From a virus, in the IMG/VR virus record IMGVR_UViG_3300030385_001078, positions 1,550-24,154 of that record: a stretch of 22,605 nt of DNA, one strand, 5' to 3'. Under the pieces are notes generated by a model, which worked only from the letters and a program-made list of their open reading frames with translations, was not told where the DNA came from and made no database searches. Position numbers and translations under genes: made by a program. Positions within the stretch are counted from its first letter, which is position 1. The number at the start of each line of letters is the position of its first letter. Below are positions 813-15,133 of this stretch, piece by piece.

Positions 813-3266
813 CTAACCTATTGATCCGCTGGAGATAATATTATTCTCTAAACTCTGCGCTGTGGTAACATCTTGGCTAACCACATACGCCTGAACAGGA
901 TTTGCACCCGATACGGCTTCTGCTATGGCGTTCATTCCGGAACTTCCAACCGTTGTCATTGGCGACACCGCAGCCGTGGTTGGGATGGAAGCCGTGGGTA
1001 CACTCGGAGCTGATAATTGGGGGTCGGCTCCCACACTCCCTCCGACCTCCTGAACTGCTCTTTTAGATTTTCCAAAAGCTCCTTTTACTGCCGCAATAAA
1101 AGCTATAGCCTGTGCAGCGTAAGCAATTAACATTGGGATATTTTGAGGAAACCCAATAGAAGCTGTAGCTGGTATTCCTGAAGCAGCATCAACCCCCCCC
1201 TTTGTAACAGAGCCTTTCGCTTGTTTTAAATTTTCTTGAGCAGAAGCTATGGTTTTTTTCCTTCCAAGCATTTTGTCTTTAAAAGCAAATATTTGTTTTG
1301 CTATCATTAAAGCCTTGCCTAATTTGCTTTCCTCTCCAGCTAATCTAATAGCGTCATCAAAGGTTTCGTTTCTCTGATCTCTTTTTACTTTTTCTAAATT
1401 CTCCTCTGCTTGTGCAACTCTATCTCTGTATGCCTGGTCATCTGTTTCTATCTGGTCTTTTTTAGCCTTCGCCTCTTCCTCGTCTGTTATTACCGCCTCT
1501 TCCCTTAACTCCTTGTAATATGCTTCTATTGCTAATTTCGCCTCCTCTTTTTCTGTTTCAGATAAAACTAAAGCATCTAATTCTAGTAAAGCTCTTTCTC
1601 TTTTCCTTTCAACCTTCTCGACATTGGAGATGTCGTCCTCGTCTTCATTTAATTGTCTGTATTTTTTTTCTAGCTTATTTAATGCCTCCAGGTCTTTTTC
1701 TCGCTGTTCTAATCTTTTCGCCTCCGCCTCTTTGTCTTCCTCTTCATATTCGTCTAATTGAATTTCTAATTCTTGTCTGTTTTTCTCTTCCTGTCTTCTC
1801 TCTGCAGCACCTTTTTGTGCTACATTAAACCGGGCTATTCTTGTTCTCGATAACATAAAAGCCTGTTGCGTATTTGTTACTCCTTGCTCAATTTGTGTTT
1901 GACCCTCTTGTAATAACAATTTGGCTTTTTCTATATTTTCTCGCACCTTGTCCTCATCTACTGCTTTGCCGATAATTGGAATTTTAGCAATAGCTAACAT
2001 CGCATTATTTGCAAAAATCGCTATACCCGAACCCATTATTTTAAAAGCACCAACTAATATGTTCTTCGCAGCTATTGTAGACATTTTACTTGTTTCCCAA
2101 ATATCCCCGATCATAAAGCCCATAAACTCAACTGCAGAGGTAACCCCTCTAATTGCTAATGTTAACCCCTGCGTCAACATCCTTCTAATATTATTTAATG
2201 GTCCCGTTCCATCCTCAATGGTTAATAAAAATCCCTCCCAAGCAGACGATAAGGATTTTTGATCCCCAATTAATGAGTCGTATCTTACTTTTGCTAAATT
2301 ATCTGCCGCACCTTCTGCCGTATTCATTGACTCTGTTAATTCGGCAATCATTGGTATATTATTCGCTAGTGTTAATAAAGACTTCGCCCCTACTATTCCA
2401 ACCAAATCAACTGCCGTATTAAGTTGGTCACTAGACCTTGCAACCCTTTGTAAAGCCTCGTCAAGTGAAATCCCTTTTTTGTTTAATTGAATAAAAGTCT
2501 TTGCCAACCCTGTCCCCGCAATAGAACCTTTCAGACCATTATTAGCCAGAACGCCTAATAGTCCCGCTGTTTCCTCAATGGTAACGCCCAAAGCTCTCGA
2601 CATTGGAGCCGCTAATTTGAAGGATTCTCTTAAAGTATTAAAATCCTGGGCTGAAGTAACCGCAGATTTCGCCATCACATCCACAACTCGCTTTGTTTCT
2701 GCCGTGGTTAAACCAAAAGCTCGAACAGTTGACCCAGCAAATTCAGCCGCTTCAGCAAGTGACACATCCAACGCCGCTGCCATAGACAAAATTGAAGGGG
2801 TAGCATCCCCTAGTTGATTAGCAGTAAATCCTAATTTCGCTAATTCTGTTTGTAATTGTATAACTTCCGAAGCCGTAAATATTGTTGTGCTCCCTAATTC
2901 CTTTGCTTGGTCTGTTAAGACCTCTAGCTCTTCTGCAGTAGAACCTGAAATAGCATTTAATCCCGCAACAGCTCCTTCAAATTCTTTAGCTTTATTAGCC
3001 GCCATCGCTAAAAAAGCAATTAAGGATCCTATCGCTACAACAATAGCACCAACACCTGTAGAAATTAACGCTGTTTTTAAAGCCCCTAAAGCTGGAATAT
3101 TAGCCAGAACTGCTGTTCTCATTGCTGAAAACCCGGTGGCTCCAGCTACTCCAGCACCTCCAGCCGCAGCCCCAGCTCCCGTTGCTTTCTTTTTTATAGA
3201 AGTAAGTCCTTTTTCAGCTTTTCCGGACTTAATGTTAAACTTAATATTATACTCTTGATCAGCCAT
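813..3266 (-). CDS. Phage tail tape measure protein
   Basis: This 817-aa protein sets tail length and is threaded through the tail tube. The N-terminus (about 25-110) is rich in Ala, Gly and hydrophobic residues. Residues of about 110-340 match the conserved core of phage tape measure proteins: segments such as GSTTIFTASEV, AEFAGSTVRAFGLT, VDVMAKSAVTSAQDF and ETAGLLGVLANNGLKG. Further hydrophobic stretches follow at about 360-440, then a long charged coiled-coil region (about 480-640), then a Gly/Ala/Pro-rich C-terminus with another hydrophobic patch near 720. At the usual 0.15 nm per residue the tail would be about 120 nm long. Its ATG overlaps the stop of the 53-aa gene by 8 nt. A G8 run in frame at codons 689-691 could be slippery or variable. 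It is the surest structural gene in the window. Confidence 0.95.
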   Translation of the reverse strand: MADQEYNIKFNIKSGKAEKGLTSIKKKATGAGAAAGGAGVAGATGFSAMRTAVLANIPALGALKTALISTGVGAIVVAIGSLIAFLAMAANKAKEFEGAVAGLNAISGSTAEELEVLTDQAKELGSTTIFTASEVIQLQTELAKLGFTANQLGDATPSILSMAAALDVSLAEAAEFAGSTVRAFGLTTAETKRVVDVMAKSAVTSAQDFNTLRESFKLAAPMSRALGVTIEETAGLLGVLANNGLKGSIAGTGLAKTFIQLNKKGISLDEALQRVARSSDQLNTAVDLVGIVGAKSLLTLANNIPMIAELTESMNTAEGAADNLAKVRYDSLIGDQKSLSSAWEGFLLTIEDGTGPLNNIRRMLTQGLTLAIRGVTSAVEFMGFMIGDIWETSKMSTIAAKNILVGAFKIMGSGIAIFANNAMLAIAKIPIIGKAVDEDKVRENIEKAKLLLQEGQTQIEQGVTNTQQAFMLSRTRIARFNVAQKGAAERRQEEKNRQELEIQLDEYEEEDKEAEAKRLEQREKDLEALNKLEKKYRQLNEDEDDISNVEKVERKRERALLELDALVLSETEKEEAKLAIEAYYKELREEAVITDEEEAKAKKDQIETDDQAYRDRVAQAEENLEKVKRDQRNETFDDAIRLAGEESKLGKALMIAKQIFAFKDKMLGRKKTIASAQENLKQAKGSVTKGGVDAASGIPATASIGFPQNIPMLIAYAAQAIAFIAAVKGAFGKSKRAVQEVGGSVGADPQLSAPSVPTASIPTTAAVSPMTTVGSSGMNAIAEAVSGANPVQAYVVSQDVTTAQSLENNIISSGSIG

Positions 3267-3420
3267 TATTTACGCTTTTTAGTTTCCACTTCAATTCTTG
3301 CCTAAAGACTTTGTATCCTTCTTTTATTGTTTCGGGTAATTTATATTTTCCTTTCGCAATTCTTATGTTTTCTGTGTCAGCTTCGACCTCGTGTAATATT
3401 TCTATAATTTGTTTTATCAT
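3259..3420 (-). CDS. Small unknown protein between tail gene and tape measure gene (53 aa)
   Basis: An ATG at 3420-3418 opens a 53-codon frame beginning MIKQIIEILHEVEADTENIR and ending at a TGA that overlaps the tape measure start by 8 nt (ATGGCTGA). It starts 7 nt after the stop of the upstream 719-aa gene and so fills an otherwise empty 160-nt gap. The protein is basic and probably helical; I do not recognise a family. Position and coupling suggest a small tail-assembly factor, which is inference. Confidence 0.65.
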   Translation of the reverse strand: MIKQIIEILHEVEADTENIRIAKGKYKLPETIKEGYKVFRQELKWKLKSVNNG

Positions 3421-3427
3421 AATTTTT

Positions 3428-5587
3428 TTATTGTCCTATCATATTATCGCCATTCTCTAAAATCATATTGTCAGCATTTTCCAGAATTAAGTTGTTAATA
3501 CCTAATACGCTTGGCAAATATTCTAATGTTTTAACTATTAATTCAAGCGAACTCTTGCCGCTTGTTAAATTTGTTCTTATTGAATTTATGTAATAATCCC
3601 TTCCCGCTATTCTAATAACGTCGTTCAGTCGATAATTTAACAAAAAATTATTATCTAAATATGCATCAACTTTTATAATACGCCCTTTTAATTTAAAACT
3701 TTGAATAATAAATTGCTGGTAAAATCTATTAAACAATCCATTGGCATTTACTGCCTGGGTAATCTCATCTGCTTCGGCTCCAAAATGAAGGGTATGGTTT
3801 TTATCTGTTGACACATTGGAAGGGGCTATATAACTATTAAACAAGGTGGCAGTAACAGGATTAGCACTTGTGTCAATTTCGTTTCTAAAAAATAATAAGG
3901 GAGCCGGAACTTGTGTTTTTGCTTGTTCATCAACCATCCAACCCATTGGATAATCTGTAAAATTTAAATTATTTGTGTCCCATATATTTATGTAAATCAT
4001 ATGGCTAAATTTTACTTTTTGTTTAAAGTTTCCTCCTTCGTACCTTTCAGGCGAAGAGTAATCTAGGTTTCCAAATTGTTGACTAAATGAGCTGATGTAT
4101 CTTTTGCTCATCTGGTCTTTTGCAGTAGCGTATTCAAATTCAATATTACTAAAAGGAATTGGTCTGCTAACATCCAGCTTGTTTACATCTATAAATTTTG
4201 TTATATCTCTTGTCACGCCTCCAGACATAAAGTCATCGTATGTTTGAACATAAATTGTTTCGCTTGTTCCTTCCGTATAAGCAACCAAATTAAAGGTCTT
4301 AAATAATGCAGCTAGAAAATCAAGAATTTTCATTTTAGGGATTAAATCCTCAATTAATCCATAAGGTTCTAAACTGAATAAAACATTTGTATAATTAGCA
4401 AGGAGGGCGGAGTTGGTAATAATCTGTGCTGTTCCCGCAGTAAAAGTAGCAGTACCTTCCTGAATTGTAAATTTAAATTCTAAATCGTAAATCCTTTCTG
4501 CTAATGTTCCACTTGTTAAATTTTTTGCATAAACAGACACCGGCACATTTGTTACCATCCTTTCATTAGTATATATTAACTCGCCTGTTATTCGATCTCT
4601 AACATCAAATTTAACTCTGGAGGGAGTGGGAGTTGTCTTTGTCATCGCCCATCTAATGTCAACCGAATCTCCTTGAGCAACCGGCAGTTTTCCTGCAACA
4701 ATAGGATCCGGGTCGCCTCCTACATAAACAAAGTCTGTTAAGTCCTTAATCTCCAGGCGTTTAGAAAAATTTAATCCAAATTTGGGCGGTATGGTTTCGG
4801 CTGGACTTGTAGGGGTTTTTTCTCGATGACACCATAAATACAGCTCGTCAAATACTTGACTGCCAAAAAAACTTGTTTTAGTTCCTACATCAGCAGTTTG
4901 AATCTCTAAACCAAATTGGCTATTAATACATTCAATTACTCGTAAACATTTAATAGCTGGTTTTAATTGGCTTTTTAAATCAAGCCAAAAATTACCATCA
5001 TAAAAATTAGGGGTTGTTATTGTGCTGGAGGAGTCATATTGAAAATAATCAGTTAAGGTTATCATTGGTAAAATTACATTAGCGTCAGAAACTCCTGTCG
5101 CCAATACATTAAAAGTACTTATGCCTTTTTCAAACATTCTGCCGGAGTCATCAGTACCACCCCCAGCCGTTTCGGCATAAAATCTATATTGGAATAAATC
5201 TGTTAGTGCAGCTAATTCAGCATTGCCCAATACCTCTTTTAATTTAGCTGTCTTTCCGAAAAATGTAACTCTATAGCTATGAGCAATATTTTGTTTTAAT
5301 TGTACACTATTCAATTGTATGCTTCCTGTTTGAAAATCAACGCCATTAATTTTTAAAATCGCATCGACCCGGAACCTCGCATCGTACCCTCCGTCAATAT
5401 CAAATTTATAATAATGTTTAAATAATAAATTATTTGTATCAGAAGCCGGAAGAGAAAAGGTCTGTGTAAATGGGATAAAAACCTTGCTAATATCTTTAAC
5501 ATTATTAATCGAATCCCTCAAAGTAACTGCCTCATCTTTGAAAAAATCAACTCTGGTTGACCCAATATATAGTTCGACATTTCGCAT
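3428..5587 (-). CDS. Large tail or baseplate structural protein (719 aa)
   Basis: This 719-aa protein has no signal peptide or clear membrane segment and is rich in beta-type sequence with many aromatic residues. The N-terminus (ELYIGSTRVDFFKDEAVTL, then NGVDFQTGSIQLNSV and HSYRVTFFG near residues 85-115) resembles large tail proteins from Bacteroidota phages as I remember them. The C-terminus holds a near-repeat, NLILENADNMILENGDNMIGQ-like, with the L-E-N-(A/G)-D-N-M-I unit occurring twice. It lies 3 nt after the 405-aa gene and immediately precedes the 53-aa gene and the tape measure gene. A tail tip, hub or baseplate role is likely. It does not look like a portal protein. The specific function is inferred from size and neighbours. 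Confidence 0.6.
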   Translation of the reverse strand: MRNVELYIGSTRVDFFKDEAVTLRDSINNVKDISKVFIPFTQTFSLPASDTNNLLFKHYYKFDIDGGYDARFRVDAILKINGVDFQTGSIQLNSVQLKQNIAHSYRVTFFGKTAKLKEVLGNAELAALTDLFQYRFYAETAGGGTDDSGRMFEKGISTFNVLATGVSDANVILPMITLTDYFQYDSSSTITTPNFYDGNFWLDLKSQLKPAIKCLRVIECINSQFGLEIQTADVGTKTSFFGSQVFDELYLWCHREKTPTSPAETIPPKFGLNFSKRLEIKDLTDFVYVGGDPDPIVAGKLPVAQGDSVDIRWAMTKTTPTPSRVKFDVRDRITGELIYTNERMVTNVPVSVYAKNLTSGTLAERIYDLEFKFTIQEGTATFTAGTAQIITNSALLANYTNVLFSLEPYGLIEDLIPKMKILDFLAALFKTFNLVAYTEGTSETIYVQTYDDFMSGGVTRDITKFIDVNKLDVSRPIPFSNIEFEYATAKDQMSKRYISSFSQQFGNLDYSSPERYEGGNFKQKVKFSHMIYINIWDTNNLNFTDYPMGWMVDEQAKTQVPAPLLFFRNEIDTSANPVTATLFNSYIAPSNVSTDKNHTLHFGAEADEITQAVNANGLFNRFYQQFIIQSFKLKGRIIKVDAYLDNNFLLNYRLNDVIRIAGRDYYINSIRTNLTSGKSSLELIVKTLEYLPSVLGINNLILENADNMILENGDNMIGQ

Positions 5588-5590
5588 TCT

Positions 5591-6808
5591 TTATCTTATA
5601 TTTTGTATAGCATCAAACGACGCATTAAAACTAAAAACATAATTAATAAGCCTATCATTTAAATTAGTTTTAAAACTCAATGACGACTCTATAATATTAA
5701 CCGGGTATAATCCTTTCCCGTCGTCCTCGCTATCTATTTCTAGCCATATTTTTTCAGATAATAATAATTCTTTGAAAACTACATTGTTGTCCTCTGGATA
5801 AAATCCTGTGTTCATTATCCAGCTTTCGCTTCCATTTAATTGAAGCACTCTTATTTGATGTTCTGTTAAATCATAATCGCTAGTGGATCCCCACGCATCG
5901 TTTTTAATTAAATTTCTTTTATATAATTTATCAGTAGTTTTTATGCCTGTTATTGATTTCTTAAACATCCATAAATCTTGTAAAACGCCATACCGATTAA
6001 TAAATACAATTTTGTAAGGAGTATATTTATACTCTCTAATCTGTTCAACTTTTATGTGAGTCGCTATATCTTTTTTTACTACATATATGTCGGTTATACA
6101 ACTTGAATCGCTACAACAAAACAAATGGTCTGTGCATACATTCGGGTCTATTGTACCGCCGTCTGCTAAAACTCTTTGAGCCCATCGCCCCTCGTTGCTT
6201 CCTTCTAAATAATATTTAACTGCATCCTCGCTTTGAGTTAAACCCGAAACCCCATTATGTTCTGCGACTAATTGACCATTGCACCAAAAAGTAATTTCGT
6301 CTATATTTCTAACATCCACCGGAACCCGGACTTGTTCGTTATAAGGAATTAAAATATGCCTGTTAGACATTAGAAGCGGGATGTTGGCTTGAGCTTCCCT
6401 TTGGTTGGACTGACTACCTTGTGAATAATTCAGAAAACCGCCCCAAGCCATATTCCCTAAAGAGGTAACCGTATTTACAACTCCACCGGCAGCATTGAAA
6501 GTTTCGTGCTTAAAATCTACCCATAGATTTGCAAAATTATTAGCTGCCGTTTGGGTATAACTTCCATCAGTCGGGTTGAATCCGGTTTTTATATAATCCT
6601 TTATTAATTCTGCTACTTCAAAATTGATTTGGTTTGTTCCTCCGCCAATATCAATCATTGTCCCGCTTAATGTGTAGTCTTCTGACCCTGGCCACACAGC
6701 AGATTTTGTCCCGCTTATTATTTTAATTTTTAACTCTGCGGTTACCTCTGCTCCAGCTCCTTGTATTTTATAAAACCAGGGCGATCTTGTGTACATTTCT
6801 ATTGCCAT
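5591..6808 (-). CDS. Tail structural protein of unknown type (405 aa)
   Basis: This 405-aa, beta-rich protein begins MAIEMYTRSPWFYKIQGAGA and lacks signal peptide and membrane segments. Around residues 224-240 is a cysteine cluster (C-T-D-H-L-F-C-C-S-D-S-S-C) that could bind metal or form disulfides, which is unusual for a cytoplasmically assembled tail protein. The C-terminal part (NLNDRLINYVFSFNASFDAI) resembles beta-strand endings of tail tube or baseplate subunits. It starts 3 nt after the stop of the 181-aa gene and ends 3 nt before the 719-aa gene, so the tail genes form one operon. A major tail tube role is possible but not shown by any motif I can name. Confidence 0.55.
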   Translation of the reverse strand: MAIEMYTRSPWFYKIQGAGAEVTAELKIKIISGTKSAVWPGSEDYTLSGTMIDIGGGTNQINFEVAELIKDYIKTGFNPTDGSYTQTAANNFANLWVDFKHETFNAAGGVVNTVTSLGNMAWGGFLNYSQGSQSNQREAQANIPLLMSNRHILIPYNEQVRVPVDVRNIDEITFWCNGQLVAEHNGVSGLTQSEDAVKYYLEGSNEGRWAQRVLADGGTIDPNVCTDHLFCCSDSSCITDIYVVKKDIATHIKVEQIREYKYTPYKIVFINRYGVLQDLWMFKKSITGIKTTDKLYKRNLIKNDAWGSTSDYDLTEHQIRVLQLNGSESWIMNTGFYPEDNNVVFKELLLSEKIWLEIDSEDDGKGLYPVNIIESSLSFKTNLNDRLINYVFSFNASFDAIQNIR

Positions 6809-6811
6809 TTT

Positions 6812-7357
6812 TTAACTTATGTTTTTATTTTTAATTATTGACCTTTTTAAATCTTGCGCAAAATCTTTAATAAAAGCCTCCATTATTTTTTTGTCATTTT
6901 TTTTGGTTATTCTTTTTAATGGCTTGGTAAAGAATAAAGTTGTTTTTAATCCTGTAGTCCAAATACTCCTTACAATTAAAAACTGTAAACTCTTTCTAGG
7001 TATAAACCTCCCTTGTTTATCTCTTATATTTTTTAATTCTTTTTTTTGAGTGACCCATTTATTAATAGCTCCTCGTAATGTTCCTCTGCTTTTGTTTCCT
7101 TTACCGAACTTATATGGGCTCTTTGGAGCCTTTTGAGCCGTCTCTGCGCCCTTAACTCCCTTGTCAACAAAGGTTCCGTAACCAAGCATTGAGATAATCA
7201 GCGTGAGCGTGTCTTTATGTTTTTTAATTTTATACTTAATACTCGTATATAAAGCCCCGGTATTGTCTTTTTTGTCTTTTACTAGATTTCGTTTTGCAGT
7301 TTTGACCACATATTTGCCGTACATATTCAGCACTTCCTTTAAATACGTTAGCTTCAT
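6812..7357 (-). CDS. Tail completion / gp10-like protein candidate (181 aa)
   Basis: The protein is 181 aa and very basic. The segment YGTFVDKGVKG at about residues 60-70, preceded by an N-terminal helix with KTAKRNL and NTGALYTSI, is the kind of sequence seen in HK97 gp10-like head-tail joining or tail completion proteins, where an R-x-T-G-xL-x-x-S helix precedes an Y-x-x-x-V-E-x-G-like strand. A Lys/Arg-rich C-terminus follows. It begins 2 nt after the 166-aa gene and ends 4 nt before the 405-aa gene. The family assignment rests on this short pattern and position, so confidence is moderate. Confidence 0.55.
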   Translation of the reverse strand: MKLTYLKEVLNMYGKYVVKTAKRNLVKDKKDNTGALYTSIKYKIKKHKDTLTLIISMLGYGTFVDKGVKGAETAQKAPKSPYKFGKGNKSRGTLRGAINKWVTQKKELKNIRDKQGRFIPRKSLQFLIVRSIWTTGLKTTLFFTKPLKRITKKNDKKIMEAFIKDFAQDLKRSIIKNKNIS

Positions 7358-7358
7358 A

Positions 7359-7859
7359 TTAAGGAGTGTTACATCTATCTATGTTATTTCTCGTGGTTAC
7401 TGAAAAATTAAAACTCCAACCCGCTAAATTATTTTCAAATCGTTCTCTAAATGGTTCAGCATTAACTTCTGAAATATTAATATAATTATTTCCGTCCCTA
7501 TTTACTCCACTACTAAAAGAATCCATTATGTGGTTACCTACATTCAACATTGAATTGAGAACATAAATCTCGTTGTCCCCAGCATACAATTCATTTATTG
7601 CTGATGACGCTACTATATCATCGTTATGTACTATATCCATCAGCATAATTGTAACATCAAAGTCGATTACCTGACTTTGAAAAGAAGCATTGCCGATTAT
7701 CATATGCACTAAAGGAAACATTGTCGACTTTGCCAAATCAACTTCTGTTATATCTCCTTGTGTTATTGTATTGACTAATTTATTAGGTTTTATCGCCAGG
7801 AACAAATCTGTTAAAAGACTTATATAAGCCTGTGATCCTTTATTTTCGTTTACGCTCAT
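7359..7859 (-). CDS. Tail terminator-like phage protein (166 aa)
   Basis: The protein is 166 aa, acidic and without membrane segments. It has a segment VIDFDVTIMLMDIV near residues 64-77 and ends with LAGWSFNFSVTTRNNIDRC, a pattern I associate with Bacteroidota phage proteins at the tail terminator or head-tail junction. Its ATG overlaps the stop codon of the frameshifted chaperone extension (ATGA). That coupling implies ribosomes using the -1 frame reach this gene directly. Function is inferred from size, position and resemblance. Confidence 0.5.
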   Translation of the reverse strand: MSVNENKGSQAYISLLTDLFLAIKPNKLVNTITQGDITEVDLAKSTMFPLVHMIIGNASFQSQVIDFDVTIMLMDIVHNDDIVASSAINELYAGDNEIYVLNSMLNVGNHIMDSFSSGVNRDGNNYINISEVNAEPFRERFENNLAGWSFNFSVTTRNNIDRCNTP

Positions 7860-11068: not shown

Positions 11069-12229
11069 TTATCTTACAGCATAAGAGCCGTAATTTGGAC
11101 GTGATAATCTCTGTATAACGCTATATCTCATCGCATCTGTACAATGATTAAAAGCATCCAGGGGTTTATTAGTTAGATTGCCATTTTTGTCTTCAATAAA
11201 TTTATAATTTCTTAACTCCTTTATTAAATTTAATGAGTCTTCCGTTACATTTATTATATATCTTTTTATTAAATCAATACTAATATTAATGCTCCCTTTT
11301 TTTACAGACTTTGTGTTATATCCCATTCTGTGCAATTCCTCTACGCTTTTTGGTTCTGCGCTATCACACCAGATTTCGTCCCTCCTGTCCATTCCTAGCC
11401 GTTTTAATTCATTCCCTATGTCCTGGTTAGTCATTCCCGTTCTGTAAATTAATTCTCTAAAATAGAGGTTATCGCCAATTAAATAAGTTTGGACTAATGC
11501 GGAAGGATCATTACTAAAGCCAAAGTCTAAACCTAAACCAACTAATTTTGCAGAGGGTGGTATTTCTTTTATTGTTTTAAAATCAAAAACTAAACTTCTA
11601 TTCTGTCCCCTTTCTCCTAATCCGTAGATACGCCAATAATTTTCGTCAATCTCTTTTAGCCTTTCAATCTCCTTAATTAATGTTAATGGTAAAAATGGGT
11701 TATCTTTATAGGTAGTTTGAAAAAAAGCACAATCCTCCCGGGGCAGAACCTTGTCATAAATCCAGTGGAACTCTTCGGAGGGGTTATAATCTAAAATTAT
11801 TTGTCCCGCTGTTCTAAATATTAATTGTTGCCAACTTTCAAAATCCAATTCGTTAGCCTCATTAATAAAAAGTATATCTCTTTTCCTTCCTCTAATTCTT
11901 GTTGGTTGGTCAATAGAAATAAATTCAAATCTATTGCCATTAAAATAGTATTCGCTTGCGCTCTTGTGATGGTGCTCTTCAATATAAATATGGTTCTTTT
12001 GTAATATCTCTATAAAGTCCCGCAGTACCGTTCCCCTTACAGCCGGAAATGTTTTGCGACAAATCGTTATTGTTTTACCGGTATTTTTTATTGCATAATA
12101 AAAGATTAGCCAAATAAGTATATTATAGGTTTTTCCAGACCTGGTACCCCCCTGTTGAACTATGATTTTTTTATTTGACTGAATTAAATCCCTGTAGACT
12201 CTATTCGTTTGTATCGTCGCTTCGGTCAA
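11069..12229 (-). CDS. terL: Terminase large subunit (ATPase-nuclease)
   Basis: This packaging motor drives DNA into the prohead and cuts it. Near the N-terminus is Walker A QGGTRSGKT (about residues 26-34), later a Walker B-like DILFINEANEL, and in the C-terminal RNase H-type nuclease GLGLDFGFSND, DEIWCDSAEPKS and a final HCTDAMRYSV, all typical of the PBSX-type large terminase family. No ATG occurs near the N-terminus. The open frame could start at TTG 12289, overlapping the small subunit by 89 nt, or at TTG 12229 with a 29-nt overlap; the latter is preferred and gives 386 aa, about usual for the family. A weak hairpin and a candidate promoter follow the stop. The function is very secure; the start is not. 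Confidence 0.93.
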   Translation of the reverse strand: MTEATIQTNRVYRDLIQSNKKIIVQQGGTRSGKTYNILIWLIFYYAIKNTGKTITICRKTFPAVRGTVLRDFIEILQKNHIYIEEHHHKSASEYYFNGNRFEFISIDQPTRIRGRKRDILFINEANELDFESWQQLIFRTAGQIILDYNPSEEFHWIYDKVLPREDCAFFQTTYKDNPFLPLTLIKEIERLKEIDENYWRIYGLGERGQNRSLVFDFKTIKEIPPSAKLVGLGLDFGFSNDPSALVQTYLIGDNLYFRELIYRTGMTNQDIGNELKRLGMDRRDEIWCDSAEPKSVEELHRMGYNTKSVKKGSINISIDLIKRYIINVTEDSLNLIKELRNYKFIEDKNGNLTNKPLDAFNHCTDAMRYSVIQRLSRPNYGSYAVR

Positions 12230-12563
12230 TGATTTCAATTTTAAAGGTTGACGGCATACCTTCAACGCCTGTAAATTCTTGTCGTTCAATATATCCTCTG
12301 CCTTTGCCTTGTGTTTTTAAATAAAAGATAGTAGCTGCTGTAGAATTAGCTCGGATTTGAGTATGTAATTGAGTTTCGGCAAAATCTAAAGCTACATTCT
12401 TTATGTCATCAACTGCAATTCTAAATTCTTTATCCTCATTGTACCACTCGTAATAAGTTGTCCTTCCGACGCCAGAAACTCTACAGGCTATCGTAACAAC
12501 TCCCAGCGATTTTTCTAATGCTTCAATCAGTCCTTTTTTATGGTGTTCGGTTTTGTTCGTCAT
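12201..12563 (-). CDS. terS: Terminase small subunit-like HTH protein
   Basis: This 120-aa protein has an N-terminal helix-turn-helix (KGLIEALEKSLGVVTIACRV, then SGVGRTTYYEWYNEDKEFR) and a central segment ATIFYLKTQGKGRGYIERQE, a pattern typical of phage DNA-recognition small terminases. These bind the packaging start site and hand DNA to the large subunit. It sits directly before the large subunit gene and overlaps it. Its ATG overlaps the glycosyltransferase stop by four bases (ATGA). The role is secure from motif and position; the exact family is less so. Confidence 0.85.
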   Translation of the reverse strand: MTNKTEHHKKGLIEALEKSLGVVTIACRVSGVGRTTYYEWYNEDKEFRIAVDDIKNVALDFAETQLHTQIRANSTAATIFYLKTQGKGRGYIERQEFTGVEGMPSTFKIEIIDRSDDTNE

Positions 12564-13300
12564 ACTCCTTGTATTGGTATTTTAATTATAGGGTTAAAGT
12601 CGAAGCTCTTTTTACTTCCTTTATCTCTTTTAATAATATCCTTTCCCCATTTTTTTTGCAGATCAAAAAATTGCCGTCTTTCAAAATCAAGGTTTCTGTA
12701 ACTTGAGCAACCTCCTTCTTGTTCTGCTTGTTTAACATTATAATTAGCGAAATTTATTCTTAATGCTCCGCCATATTTTAAAATGTGCTGGAGGGTTATA
12801 TCGTAATCCTCCTTTAATGGTAACGCCTCATCGTAACGAATTTCGCTGGATTTTAAATGAGCTTGAAAAGGTCCGCCTATATATTGCAAAGTTCCGAAGG
12901 GTGTGTACTCCCTGTAAGCTCCTTTATCTGGCAGACAATTCAAACCCCAAAATTTAAAACCAAATTCAAAACATAAATTAGCCCACTCTTCACAATGCTC
13001 TTGTAACTCTTGAGAATTAAACTTATAATGAGTTTGGTCTTGCCACCTTCCAATGCCGTTACAATCATCGTCAACTATAATAATACAATCTGCATCCTCG
13101 TATAGGTTATCTATTATCCAATTCCGTACTCTGCATAAATTCCCTTGTATATTATCGGGACAGACCACAATTTCGTTTCCGTTCTTTTTATATTCCTTCG
13201 CTTCGGATTCTTTGACCACTAATTTAATAAAAGGGTATAGTTTTTGTGTTGATGACTTTTCAGCTCTTTTGTAAGAAGGGGCAAAATATTTAATTCTCAT
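12560..13300 (-). CDS. GT-A glycosyltransferase, TET-associated (TAGT)-like; DNA base modification candidate
   Basis: A 246-aa protein with a GT-A type layout: an N-terminal APSYKRAEK segment (7-15), a nucleotide-sugar-binding strand, IIIVDDDCNG at 73-82 with the metal-binding D-x-D motif (Asp77-79), GLNCLPD and PFGTLQYIGGPFQAH in the middle, and an acidic LKEDYD block at 162-167 followed by TLQHILKYGG. This pattern resembles the TET-associated glycosyltransferases that modify bases in phage DNA, for example by sugar transfer to a hydroxylated pyrimidine. It is coupled by ATGA overlaps to a ParB-like gene upstream and the small terminase downstream, as described for such cassettes. No hydroxylase or other base-modifying enzyme is visible in the window, so the acceptor base is unknown. 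Other GT-A enzymes are possible. Confidence 0.75.
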   Translation of the reverse strand: MRIKYFAPSYKRAEKSSTQKLYPFIKLVVKESEAKEYKKNGNEIVVCPDNIQGNLCRVRNWIIDNLYEDADCIIIVDDDCNGIGRWQDQTHYKFNSQELQEHCEEWANLCFEFGFKFWGLNCLPDKGAYREYTPFGTLQYIGGPFQAHLKSSEIRYDEALPLKEDYDITLQHILKYGGALRINFANYNVKQAEQEGGCSSYRNLDFERRQFFDLQKKWGKDIIKRDKGSKKSFDFNPIIKIPIQGV

Positions 13301-13908
13301 TTGTCTTGTAATTTCTTTATCGCCTTTACGCCGTCCAGAACTCTGCCGATTCCTTTAGACCAGTCTTTGCCATTTGCTCTCCGCCCTGTTTCTGTTTTTA
13401 ATCCGAACAGGGTTTTAGCTTGAAGCCAGTCTATATCTGTATTAAATTTTAAGACTAGATAATTACTTTGTCTATCTAATTCAGTAGCAAAAATATTCTC
13501 CGTATTCATATTATCCGGGTTATTATTCTCTTCTATGTCGTCCTCATCTATAAGAGGATCCAATCCCCAGTCCGTTAAAGTATCTAAATCCCATCCGTTG
13601 CCTAAAGCATCCCAGTCCCACGAACCAAAAGCCGTATTATCCTTAATGATAAACTCTTGTTTTTGCTCATCAGTTAGTCCGTCAGCTTTCATTATATAAA
13701 CCTCTTTCAGTCCTAATTCTATTGCAGCTTTATATCGCATATTGCCGCCTAAAATTATGTTGTCTTGGTCTACTATGATAGGGCGAAGCCTTAACATCTC
13801 CGGGAACTCTTTAATGCTATTTACTAATTTAGCAAATTTATCTTTTGTAATATACCTTGGATTTTCTGGATTTTCTTTTAATGAGTTTGGATTAACTTTA
13901 TGTATCAT
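13297..13908 (-). CDS. ParB/sulfiredoxin-like domain protein
   Basis: This 203-aa protein has the ParB N-terminal motifs NPNSLKENPENPRYI (6-20), RPIIVDQDNIILGGNMRY (42-59) with the GGNMR loop (54-58), and a helix AAIELGLKEV after it. The C-terminal half is acidic and ends with VLKFNTDIDWLQAKTLFGL-like sequence and a basic tail. Such phage ParB-type proteins are often found beside DNA-modification and packaging genes; they may bind DNA, act as nucleases or use nucleotides. It overlaps its neighbours by four bases on each side. It is probably not a plasmid partition protein because no ParA is visible. Biochemical function remains uncertain. Confidence 0.85.
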   Translation of the reverse strand: MIHKVNPNSLKENPENPRYITKDKFAKLVNSIKEFPEMLRLRPIIVDQDNIILGGNMRYKAAIELGLKEVYIMKADGLTDEQKQEFIIKDNTAFGSWDWDALGNGWDLDTLTDWGLDPLIDEDDIEENNNPDNMNTENIFATELDRQSNYLVLKFNTDIDWLQAKTLFGLKTETGRRANGKDWSKGIGRVLDGVKAIKKLQDK

Positions 13909-14348
13909 ATTTTGATGTTTACTTTATAATCTAAACACTGGCTTAATTCGTTAAATAAATGATCCACTAAATGGTCGTCTAATTTATGTGCTTTGTTTTT
14001 CAGAATATCTGCTATGCAGTTAATTCTAACCTTTTCGTTTTTACTCTTTACTGCTAAACTCCGAATAGCATCGTCCAGCATTAAATATTTCTCTCTGTAG
14101 ACTTCATAATTTCTAATAGAATTTAATATAGTCGCTTCAGTTGGGGCCTCGTATTCATTCCCTTTGTTATCAGATAAAATAGCTAGAGAAAACTCACTCC
14201 TTGCCTCCGTCATACTTAAACCTTCATATTTAATAAGATAATAGAAAATAGCCGCTCTAGCTGCTATGATCTTTTGTTCTCTTGATTTCTGTAAAACCTT
14301 ATGTTTTATAGCTCTTTCAAACTTTTTTATAATTGTTTTTGTTGTCAT
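13905..14348 (-). CDS. Unknown helical protein (147 aa)
   Basis: A 147-aa, mostly helical protein with a basic N-terminus (TIIKKFERAIKHKVLQKSRE) and a central segment AAIFYYLIKYEGLSMTEARS. The region ATILNSIRNYEVYREKYLML is helical, and the C-terminus repeats H-rich helices (KNKAHKLDDHLVDHLF). No catalytic motif is evident. It lies between a RecE-like exonuclease and the ParB-like gene, with four-base overlaps on both sides, so a role in DNA processing or modification is possible but not shown. Confidence 0.7.
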   Translation of the reverse strand: MTTKTIIKKFERAIKHKVLQKSREQKIIAARAAIFYYLIKYEGLSMTEARSEFSLAILSDNKGNEYEAPTEATILNSIRNYEVYREKYLMLDDAIRSLAVKSKNEKVRINCIADILKNKAHKLDDHLVDHLFNELSQCLDYKVNIKI

Positions 14349-15133
14349 AATATTTCTGTTATAATATAATTATTTAAATCGCTTTCTATTTCGTCATCTG
14401 TTTTTTTATGAAAAAAATCGAGATATCGATTAATAGCAAGTTTTACTTTGTTTTTTCCATTTAAATAGAATTCCTCGCTGACCTCAAAAATCCCCACATC
14501 CAAAGACCCTTTGTCAATAACCAGGAATTTAAAATCGTAATAATTAAATCCAAATAATTGGCAATATAAATAAACTTGTATGTCATATCCAAAAGCATCC
14601 GCACTATATTTAAAGCCCTTTATATTTTGGCAAGTCTTCAAATCACATATGCCGTCCTCGCTTAATATATCTGCCTTGCCTCTAAAAGGCATTCCCATAA
14701 CCGAACCAATAACCGGCACCTCGTGTTGTGCGTTTGAAAGACATTTTAAAGCAAATTCGTTTTTTAATATCGCATCTGCCAATCTCTCTGTTTCATCCTT
14801 CTGTTTTATTGTAAAGGTAAATTCATTTTCCATTTTCGCTTCCTTAAATTTTTTAGTCGCCTTGGTAGAGCAATCAATCCATTGGAATTTGTCCCATTTT
14901 TCAGGTTCCAGGATTAAGGTATGCAATAGCCATCCGGACTGCATCGCCGCCGTTTGCTTTCCTCCATACTTTTTTACATAATAATACTTTTTAGCCGACT
15001 CTGTCAACAGCTTTAATGAGCTAGAGGATAAAGCGAGTTTATTTAATTCGCCATAATAAAAAGAGTCGTCCTCCATTTTCTGGAGGATCTCCCTTTTTTT
15101 ATAAACCTTTCCATCCAATAATTTAATTGTCAT
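14345..15133 (-). CDS. PD-(D/E)XK exonuclease, RecE/DUF3799-like
   Basis: A 262-aa protein with a nuclease fold of the RecB/RecE-type clan. Visible residues are His71 in GWLLHTLILEPEKW, Glu138 in QHEVPVIG, Asp155 in RGKADIL, Asp164 and Lys166 in CDLKT, Gln186 and Tyr190 in YDIQVYLY. This is the full motif set expected of the phage-type PDDEXK exonuclease family, which trims 5' strands of double-stranded DNA for recombination. No obvious partner annealing protein sits beside it; the OB-fold candidate or the SSB-like protein upstream are the nearest candidates. It overlaps the 111-aa frame by 11 nt and the next gene by four. The fold assignment is secure; exonuclease polarity is inferred. Confidence 0.85.
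   Translation of the reverse strand: MTIKLLDGKVYKKREILQKMEDDSFYYGELNKLALSSSSLKLLTESAKKYYYVKKYGGKQTAAMQSGWLLHTLILEPEKWDKFQWIDCSTKATKKFKEAKMENEFTFTIKQKDETERLADAILKNEFALKCLSNAQHEVPVIGSVMGMPFRGKADILSEDGICDLKTCQNIKGFKYSADAFGYDIQVYLYCQLFGFNYYDFKFLVIDKGSLDVGIFEVSEEFYLNGKNKVKLAINRYLDFFHKKTDDEIESDLNNYIITEIL

Follow-up and report, generated by a model that had tools for sequence, protein, structure and literature searches.

The window analyzed here is a stretch of 22,605 nucleotides covering positions 1550-24154 of the 26,668-base IMG/VR virus record IMGVR_UViG_3300030385_001078. It contains a minus-strand operon composed of, in order, a DUF3799 exonuclease-like gene, a 147-aa ORF, a gene for a ParB-like protein (hereafter ParB), a glycosyltransferase gene (GT) and the genes for the small and large terminase subunits (TerS and TerL; Table 1). 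The ParB-GT-terminase arrangement at 12201-13908, proposed in a preliminary description of the same sequence, is borne out by the ORF coordinates and by the family matches, which for TerL are to the Pfam families Terminase_3 and Terminase_3C. The genes had also been described as all joined by four-base overlaps. Inspection of the DNA confirms ATGA overlaps of this length at three junctions (upstream ORF/ParB, ParB/GT and GT/TerS), but that between TerS and TerL is 89 bases long when TerL is taken to begin at TTG, the start of its longest ORF (11069-12289).

Table 1. Coordinates of the operon members and their motifs in the window, and of the related pair in E. coli.
Feature	Position	Strand	Basis
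DUF3799 PD-(D/E)XK exonuclease-like recombination gene, operon member	14345..15133	-	PF12684 (E 3e-20); phrog_412
Upstream ORF (147 aa), no assigned function	13905..14348	-	Overlaps ParB by 4 bases; not conserved along with the cassette
ParB/Srx-type NTPase-like protein, 203 aa, partner of GT	13297..13908	-	PF02195 ParB_N (E 2.5e-6); AlphaFold model; Foldseek
ParB_N domain, residues 2-84 of ParB	13657..13905	-	Pfam envelope
Conserved C-terminal domain of ParB	13300..13500	-	N-Y-x-V-L-x-F ... D-W ... G-x-G-R-V-x-x-G
TAGT-family GT-A glycosyltransferase (GT), 246 aa	12560..13300	-	PF20691; phrog_842; model; fold matches
DDD77-79, DxD-type sugar-nucleotide/metal motif of GT	13064..13072	-	Invariant in 84 sequences
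LKEDYD162-167 of GT, probable catalytic and acceptor-side motif	12800..12817	-	Invariant in 84 sequences; aligns with ED motif of distant TAGTs
Terminase small subunit TerS, 120 aa	12201..12563	-	phrog_309, phrog_4044, phrog_4102; position; family
Terminase large subunit TerL, 406 aa	11069..12289	-	PF04466 (E 5.4e-22); PF17288 (E 6.6e-14)
E. coli ParB-TAGT pair	NZ_CP023820 1563269-1564985 (L237 19959-21675)		

Profile hidden Markov models place the GT in the TAGT family, as had been suggested: it matches Pfam PF20691 with 40.2 bits (E 4.8e-10) against a curated cut-off of 27.5 bits, and 37 of 39 related records score above this cut-off too. It also matches phrog_842, annotated as 'beta-glucosyl-HMC-alpha-glucosyltransferase' (E 8.2e-17), and profile-profile comparison aligns it over 221 columns, with 99.7% probability, to a set of distant TAGTs covering E. 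coli, Nocardia, Lactobacillus and haloarchaeal viruses. The Asp77-79 triplet and the LKEDYD block (L162-D167) that had been picked out from the sequence are both conserved without exception across 84 diverse relatives (Table 1). An alignment-based AlphaFold2 model (pLDDT 91.6, pTM 0.89), its fold matches and the DxD motif with the downstream ED motif agree with the GT-A type assigned earlier. Named TAGT-domain proteins are among the best fold matches to viral models, as is a T-even-type beta-glucosyl-HMC-alpha-glucosyltransferase from a Klebsiella phage (TM 0.75). Matches in the PDB are mainly GT-A enzymes of low identity (TarS, TarP, RmlT, ppGalNAc-T and cellulose synthase), with no TAGT structure among the matches listed, and a sequence search of solved structures returned no relative, the best hit being an unrelated protein (E 0.05). 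Comparison of the predicted fold settles the GT-A class but not the acceptor. TarS, TarP and RmlT, the best Foldseek matches in the PDB, are wall-teichoic-acid GTs, as would suit an enzyme altering a host surface glycan or teichoic acid for superinfection exclusion or seroconversion. We regard such a role as highly improbable given that no flippase neighbor was seen in the neighborhoods with annotation, that the gene occupies a late-operon site by the terminase and not a lysogenic-conversion site, that the hosts include both Gram-negative bacteria and archaea, whose surfaces are unrelated, and that the ParB partner is near-universal.

The N-terminal domain of ParB (residues 1-90 modeled by AlphaFold at pLDDT about 85-96) gives Foldseek matches to CTP-bound ParB, Noc and sulfiredoxin, and the nucleotide-site residues G55 and R58 are conserved. 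The predicted ParB_N fold and these residues place the protein in the ParB/Srx superfamily. A plain chromosome or plasmid partition ParB was considered and rejected (TIGR00180, 24.9 bits against a cut-off of 58.45 bits), and a search of this ParB for a centromere-binding HTH gave no HTH domain match. The C-terminal domain is modeled with moderate confidence only and has no Pfam or NCBIfam match; its single match in 393 Bacteroidales genomes lies directly upstream of the one close GT found there.

ParB is located upstream of the GT, on the same strand, in 103 of the 109 sources carrying this GT, usually with an overlap of 4 or 11 bases, and in the remaining 6 no more than about 200 bases separate the GT from the contig end. 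A second, more distant set of contigs, partly overlapping with the first, again has ParB upstream, the two contigs without ParB being truncated. Wherever related contigs have room to show it, ParB is found directly or one gene upstream of the GT, and the pair occurs in phages of many phyla. Gene clustering across 31 genomes or loci recovered ParB in 31, the GT in 30, the TerL family in 25 and any other family in at most 11; the single miss, in L094, is an artefact of the ORF filter, the GT of this locus having been found in the 109-source survey. The close pairs are under strong purifying selection, with dN far below dS (e.g., 0.003 versus 0.101 per site), and this, together with the recurrence of the ParB-GT order in more than 100 contigs, excludes chance.

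The terminases beside the pair vary, TerL E-values running from below 1e-180 to no match, while ParB is constant. The proposal of a GT-ParB-terminase cassette holds for the link to packaging and for the ParB partner, but the conserved unit is ParB plus GT; GT plus terminase was rejected in this role since ParB is retained next to differing terminases. The C-terminal domain of ParB diverges in step with the GT (Spearman rho 0.80, against 0.25 for TerL versus GT), a correlation similar in strength to that between the two halves of the GT, on distances that saturate. Such correlated divergence supports the inheritance of ParB and GT as one unit and is no proof of contact. We also considered whether the C-terminal domain co-evolves more with the GT than with its own ParB_N domain and rejected this, the two correlations being equal within the near clade (0.42 with ParB_N, 0.40 with GT). 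The tight linkage to the terminase, along with the GT-A similarity to protein GTs (e.g., ppGalNAc-T, Z 13.9), could be explained by a GT whose target is a protein of the virion or of packaging (terminase, portal or capsid), next to a ParB that is an unrelated neighbor or a scaffold. This explanation appears quite unlikely to us: the pair travels with unrelated terminases, its divergence follows ParB and not TerL, and the related TAGTs of T-even-like phages have DNA as their substrate.

Bacteroidales genomes provided four distant TAGT loci. ParB and GT are followed by TerS/TerL in L222 and L225, and in L224 ParB is directly upstream of the GT with no terminase within the stretch fetched. L223 (5975-7563) contains two GT-like genes, an ORF without assignment, TerS and a terminase-like gene, with no adjoining ParB, and is the one clear exception to a pairing that is near-obligate. 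The ParB-TAGT order is also present in Lactobacillus phages c5 and jlb1, in E. coli phage vB_EcoS-613R10 and in the haloarchaeal virus HHTV-2. In Nocardia NTR1, the TAGT comes after Orf1, which has no Pfam ParB hit and whose C-terminal region resembles the distant ParBs. These pairs have in common a second conserved type of ParB C-terminal domain (RH.VF...IA.YYAHA...ALVIID; L233, L234, L235, L236 and L232), which is found in bacterial and archaeal viruses alike and goes with a different TAGT clade. In gene 1 of Lactobacillus phage Ld17 (L228 75-833), a TAGT part precedes a segment that has 80% identity to the ParB of phage Ld25A; the gene appears rearranged and is possibly a decayed or shuffled pair.

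The pair is also widespread in E. coli, where at least 80% of it is present in 885 of 5426 genomes (about one in six). In strain 7/2, the Rac prophage that carries it is intact; the lysis genes and trkG precede the pair, and the terminase comes right after it (Table 1). In K-12, all that is left is a ParB stump, ynaK, adjacent to ydaY (BW25113, L238 3959-4562); the GT and the subsequent genes as far as ydaY, which intact Rac prophages have, are missing. The ynaK product thus resembles a ParB that has been truncated and has lost its TAGT partner. Literature searches on HHTV-2, ynaK and GREB1 returned no paper that, judging from titles and abstracts, deals with DNA glycosylation by these pairs.

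Further enzymes are encoded around the pair in some of the loci. SAM-dependent methyltransferases of different families are inserted in several of them. Those of the FkbM type, which are often linked to sugar O-methylation, are located between ParB and GT in L095 (3254-3922) and L100 (9273-10004), and other class-I methyltransferases have the same position in L082 (9053-9616), L083 and L162 (1268-2038, assigned by sequence motif only). L088 has a second TAGT between ParB and GT, and L222 combines ParB with two TAGTs and a third GT-like gene. In L225, genes for a UDP-galactopyranose mutase and an acetyltransferase precede ParB, an ATP-grasp ligase separates ParB from the TAGT-like GT, and the last gene is that of a PLP decarboxylase. 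This single run before the terminase (2812-7783) is a candidate complex DNA-hypermodification cassette. The neighboring enzymes fit a sugar that is built up and decorated on the product. Genes of other kinds were seen as well: a Roseibacillus prophage encodes a GmrSD_N protein (type IV restriction, DUF262; L094 11723-12772) ahead of TerL, at a distance of about 1 kb downstream from the ParB-GT pair, and L113 has, at 2606-3862, a PAPS-reductase/DUF3440 gene with a second ParB just upstream of the pair.

To our knowledge, characterized DNA glycosyltransferases need a base hydroxymethylated beforehand by another enzyme, and all characterized DNA GTs of the TAGT type known to us act on hydroxymethyl bases. 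A thymidylate-synthase-type hydroxymethylase (PF00303) was found in none of 41 records, some of which are fragments, while the control matched in 9 genomes; the T-even arrangement, with a PF00303 hydroxymethylase in the phage, was thus not observed. The TET/JBP dioxygenase (PF12851) matched none of the 41 records, nor any of 23 records or host genomes (ten host genomes among them), in searches whose positive control gave no match. Neither the gene table of Javan291 nor the 41.7 kb shown of the E. coli Rac prophage names a TET or a hydroxymethylase. The absence of a recognizable acceptor-making enzyme, reported earlier for the window, now extends to the whole 26.7-kb record, about 40 relatives, the complete Javan291 and most of the intact Rac prophage. 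Of the earlier label 'TET-associated', the family (PF20691) holds, but a TET partner was seen in none of the relatives (by the search lacking a positive control), and the name misleads for this cassette.

These results bear on how the acceptor would be made. The DNA could be glycosylated on a hydroxymethylated base supplied by an unrecognized phage gene or by the host, as in T-even or TET systems; the precedents named above point this way, and the window's record is a 26.7-kb fragment that could lack a gene. We nevertheless consider this unlikely: nothing is shared beyond ParB and terminase in the 31 genomes or loci, the PF00303 search was negative with its control working, no TET was seen in the phage records or the ten host genomes (again without a positive control), and hundreds of E. 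coli genomes hold the pair. Since E. coli is not known to us to make hydroxymethylated DNA bases, supply by the host is disfavored there. The missing phage gene or host enzyme that the preliminary description had entertained as the source has become less likely because the carriers have no other gene family in common; the acceptor would come from non-homologous genes in each case, from the hosts, or would involve no separate enzyme. In the last case, ParB and GT alone would put sugar on a never-hydroxymethylated base, ParB activating or exposing the base, be it canonical or no more than methylated, for direct glycosylation by the GT. We know of no such chemistry for DNA and advance it tentatively, as possible rather than probable.

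Comparison with known systems reveals partial similarities. The cassette resembles the T6-type beta-glucosyl-HMC-alpha-glucosyltransferases in its PF20691 match above cut-off, its GT-A fold and its DDD and ED motifs, but identity to these enzymes is about 25% or less, and the cassette is found without dCMP hydroxymethylase or recognized TET, in small phages and with a near-obligate ParB. In T6-like phages, the TAGT acts on hydroxymethylcytosine DNA (PMC13390438). TET-linked hypermodification (5-glucosyl-hmC type) has the same GT family by HMM, whereas here TET/JBP was not found in the record, its relatives or host genomes (positive control likewise without a match). ParB-methyltransferase fusions of the phrog_498 type contain a related ParB domain (E 4.7e-26), and those of Javan254 and Funu1 occupy the slot before the terminase, as the ParB-GT pair does; unlike these fusions, the cassette has a separate GT in place of the methylase and a ParB with a different, GT-matched C-terminal domain. 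A ParB-like ATPase is also paired with a base-modifying transferase in DpdAB, in which the ATPase activity of DpdB is reported to drive deazaguanine insertion into DNA by DpdA (7-deazaguanine insertion; PMC12839542). DpdA is, however, a TGT-like enzyme, the partner here being a GT-A sugar transferase (TAGT), and DpdAB is found in a defence island whereas the pair is in a phage late operon. In the CmoX/ParBc phage cassettes (carboxymethylcytosine), a ParB_N protein similarly recurs next to the phage DNA-base modifier CmoX (PMC12783734), with a methyltransferase-like enzyme and a ligase used instead of a GT. In addition, ParBc proteins have been described as of unknown role next to DNA methyltransferases (PMC12783734), and a ParB_N-like domain forms the N-terminal domain of the GmrSD enzymes, a type IV restriction family (PMC12373910).

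Overall, we consider it likely that the pair constitutes a two-component, ParB-assisted DNA-glycosylation module working around packaging. This reading follows from the TAGT membership and the TAGT-domain proteins among the closest viral fold matches, from the near-constant ParB partner whose C-terminal divergence tracks the GT more than TerL does, and from the ParB-GT-terminase order kept in distant TAGT clades. It is further supported by the ParB-like domains that accompany other DNA-base modifiers, by the GT, methyltransferase and UDP-galactopyranose mutase genes adjoining the pair in some loci, and by the place of the E. coli pair, with the lysis genes upstream and the terminase immediately after it. 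Against it stand the lack of a hydroxylated-base gene with the pair, the nearest PDB folds, which are low-identity matches to wall-teichoic-acid, protein and polysaccharide GTs, and the moderate confidence of the model for the ParB C-terminal domain. The preliminary description of this DNA is hence upheld in what it observed and partly supported in its interpretation.

More specifically, the TAGT-family GT would move a sugar from a nucleotide-sugar donor onto bases of newly synthesized phage DNA. The ParB-like NTPase, whose translation is coupled to that of the GT, would be its DNA-loading or activating partner, with the ParB_N domain predicted to bind nucleotide and DNA and the cassette-specific C-terminal domain to dock the GT or select the site. 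By analogy with the ParB-containing systems above, ParB probably loads or activates the GT on DNA. Made together with the terminase, the pair may mark replicated phage DNA shortly before or during packaging, which would shield the virion DNA against restriction once it enters the next host. Further decoration of the sugar may come, in some relatives, from an additional GT, an O-methyltransferase or another tailoring enzyme.

The cassette is a TAGT system whose ParB partner is near-obligate and which comes without a recognized acceptor-making gene. The conserved pair is found without a recognized hydroxymethylating gene in every genome examined, and because these include metabolically well-understood E. 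coli strains, the acceptor question is directly testable in ordinary laboratory strains. If ParB and GT alone modify DNA, they would represent a new route to glycosylated DNA, give a function to ParB-like proteins beside phage terminases and explain E. coli ynaK as the truncated first half of a pair. Direct glycosylation would then be a chemistry spread among bacterial and archaeal viruses and present in the Rac prophage of E. coli.
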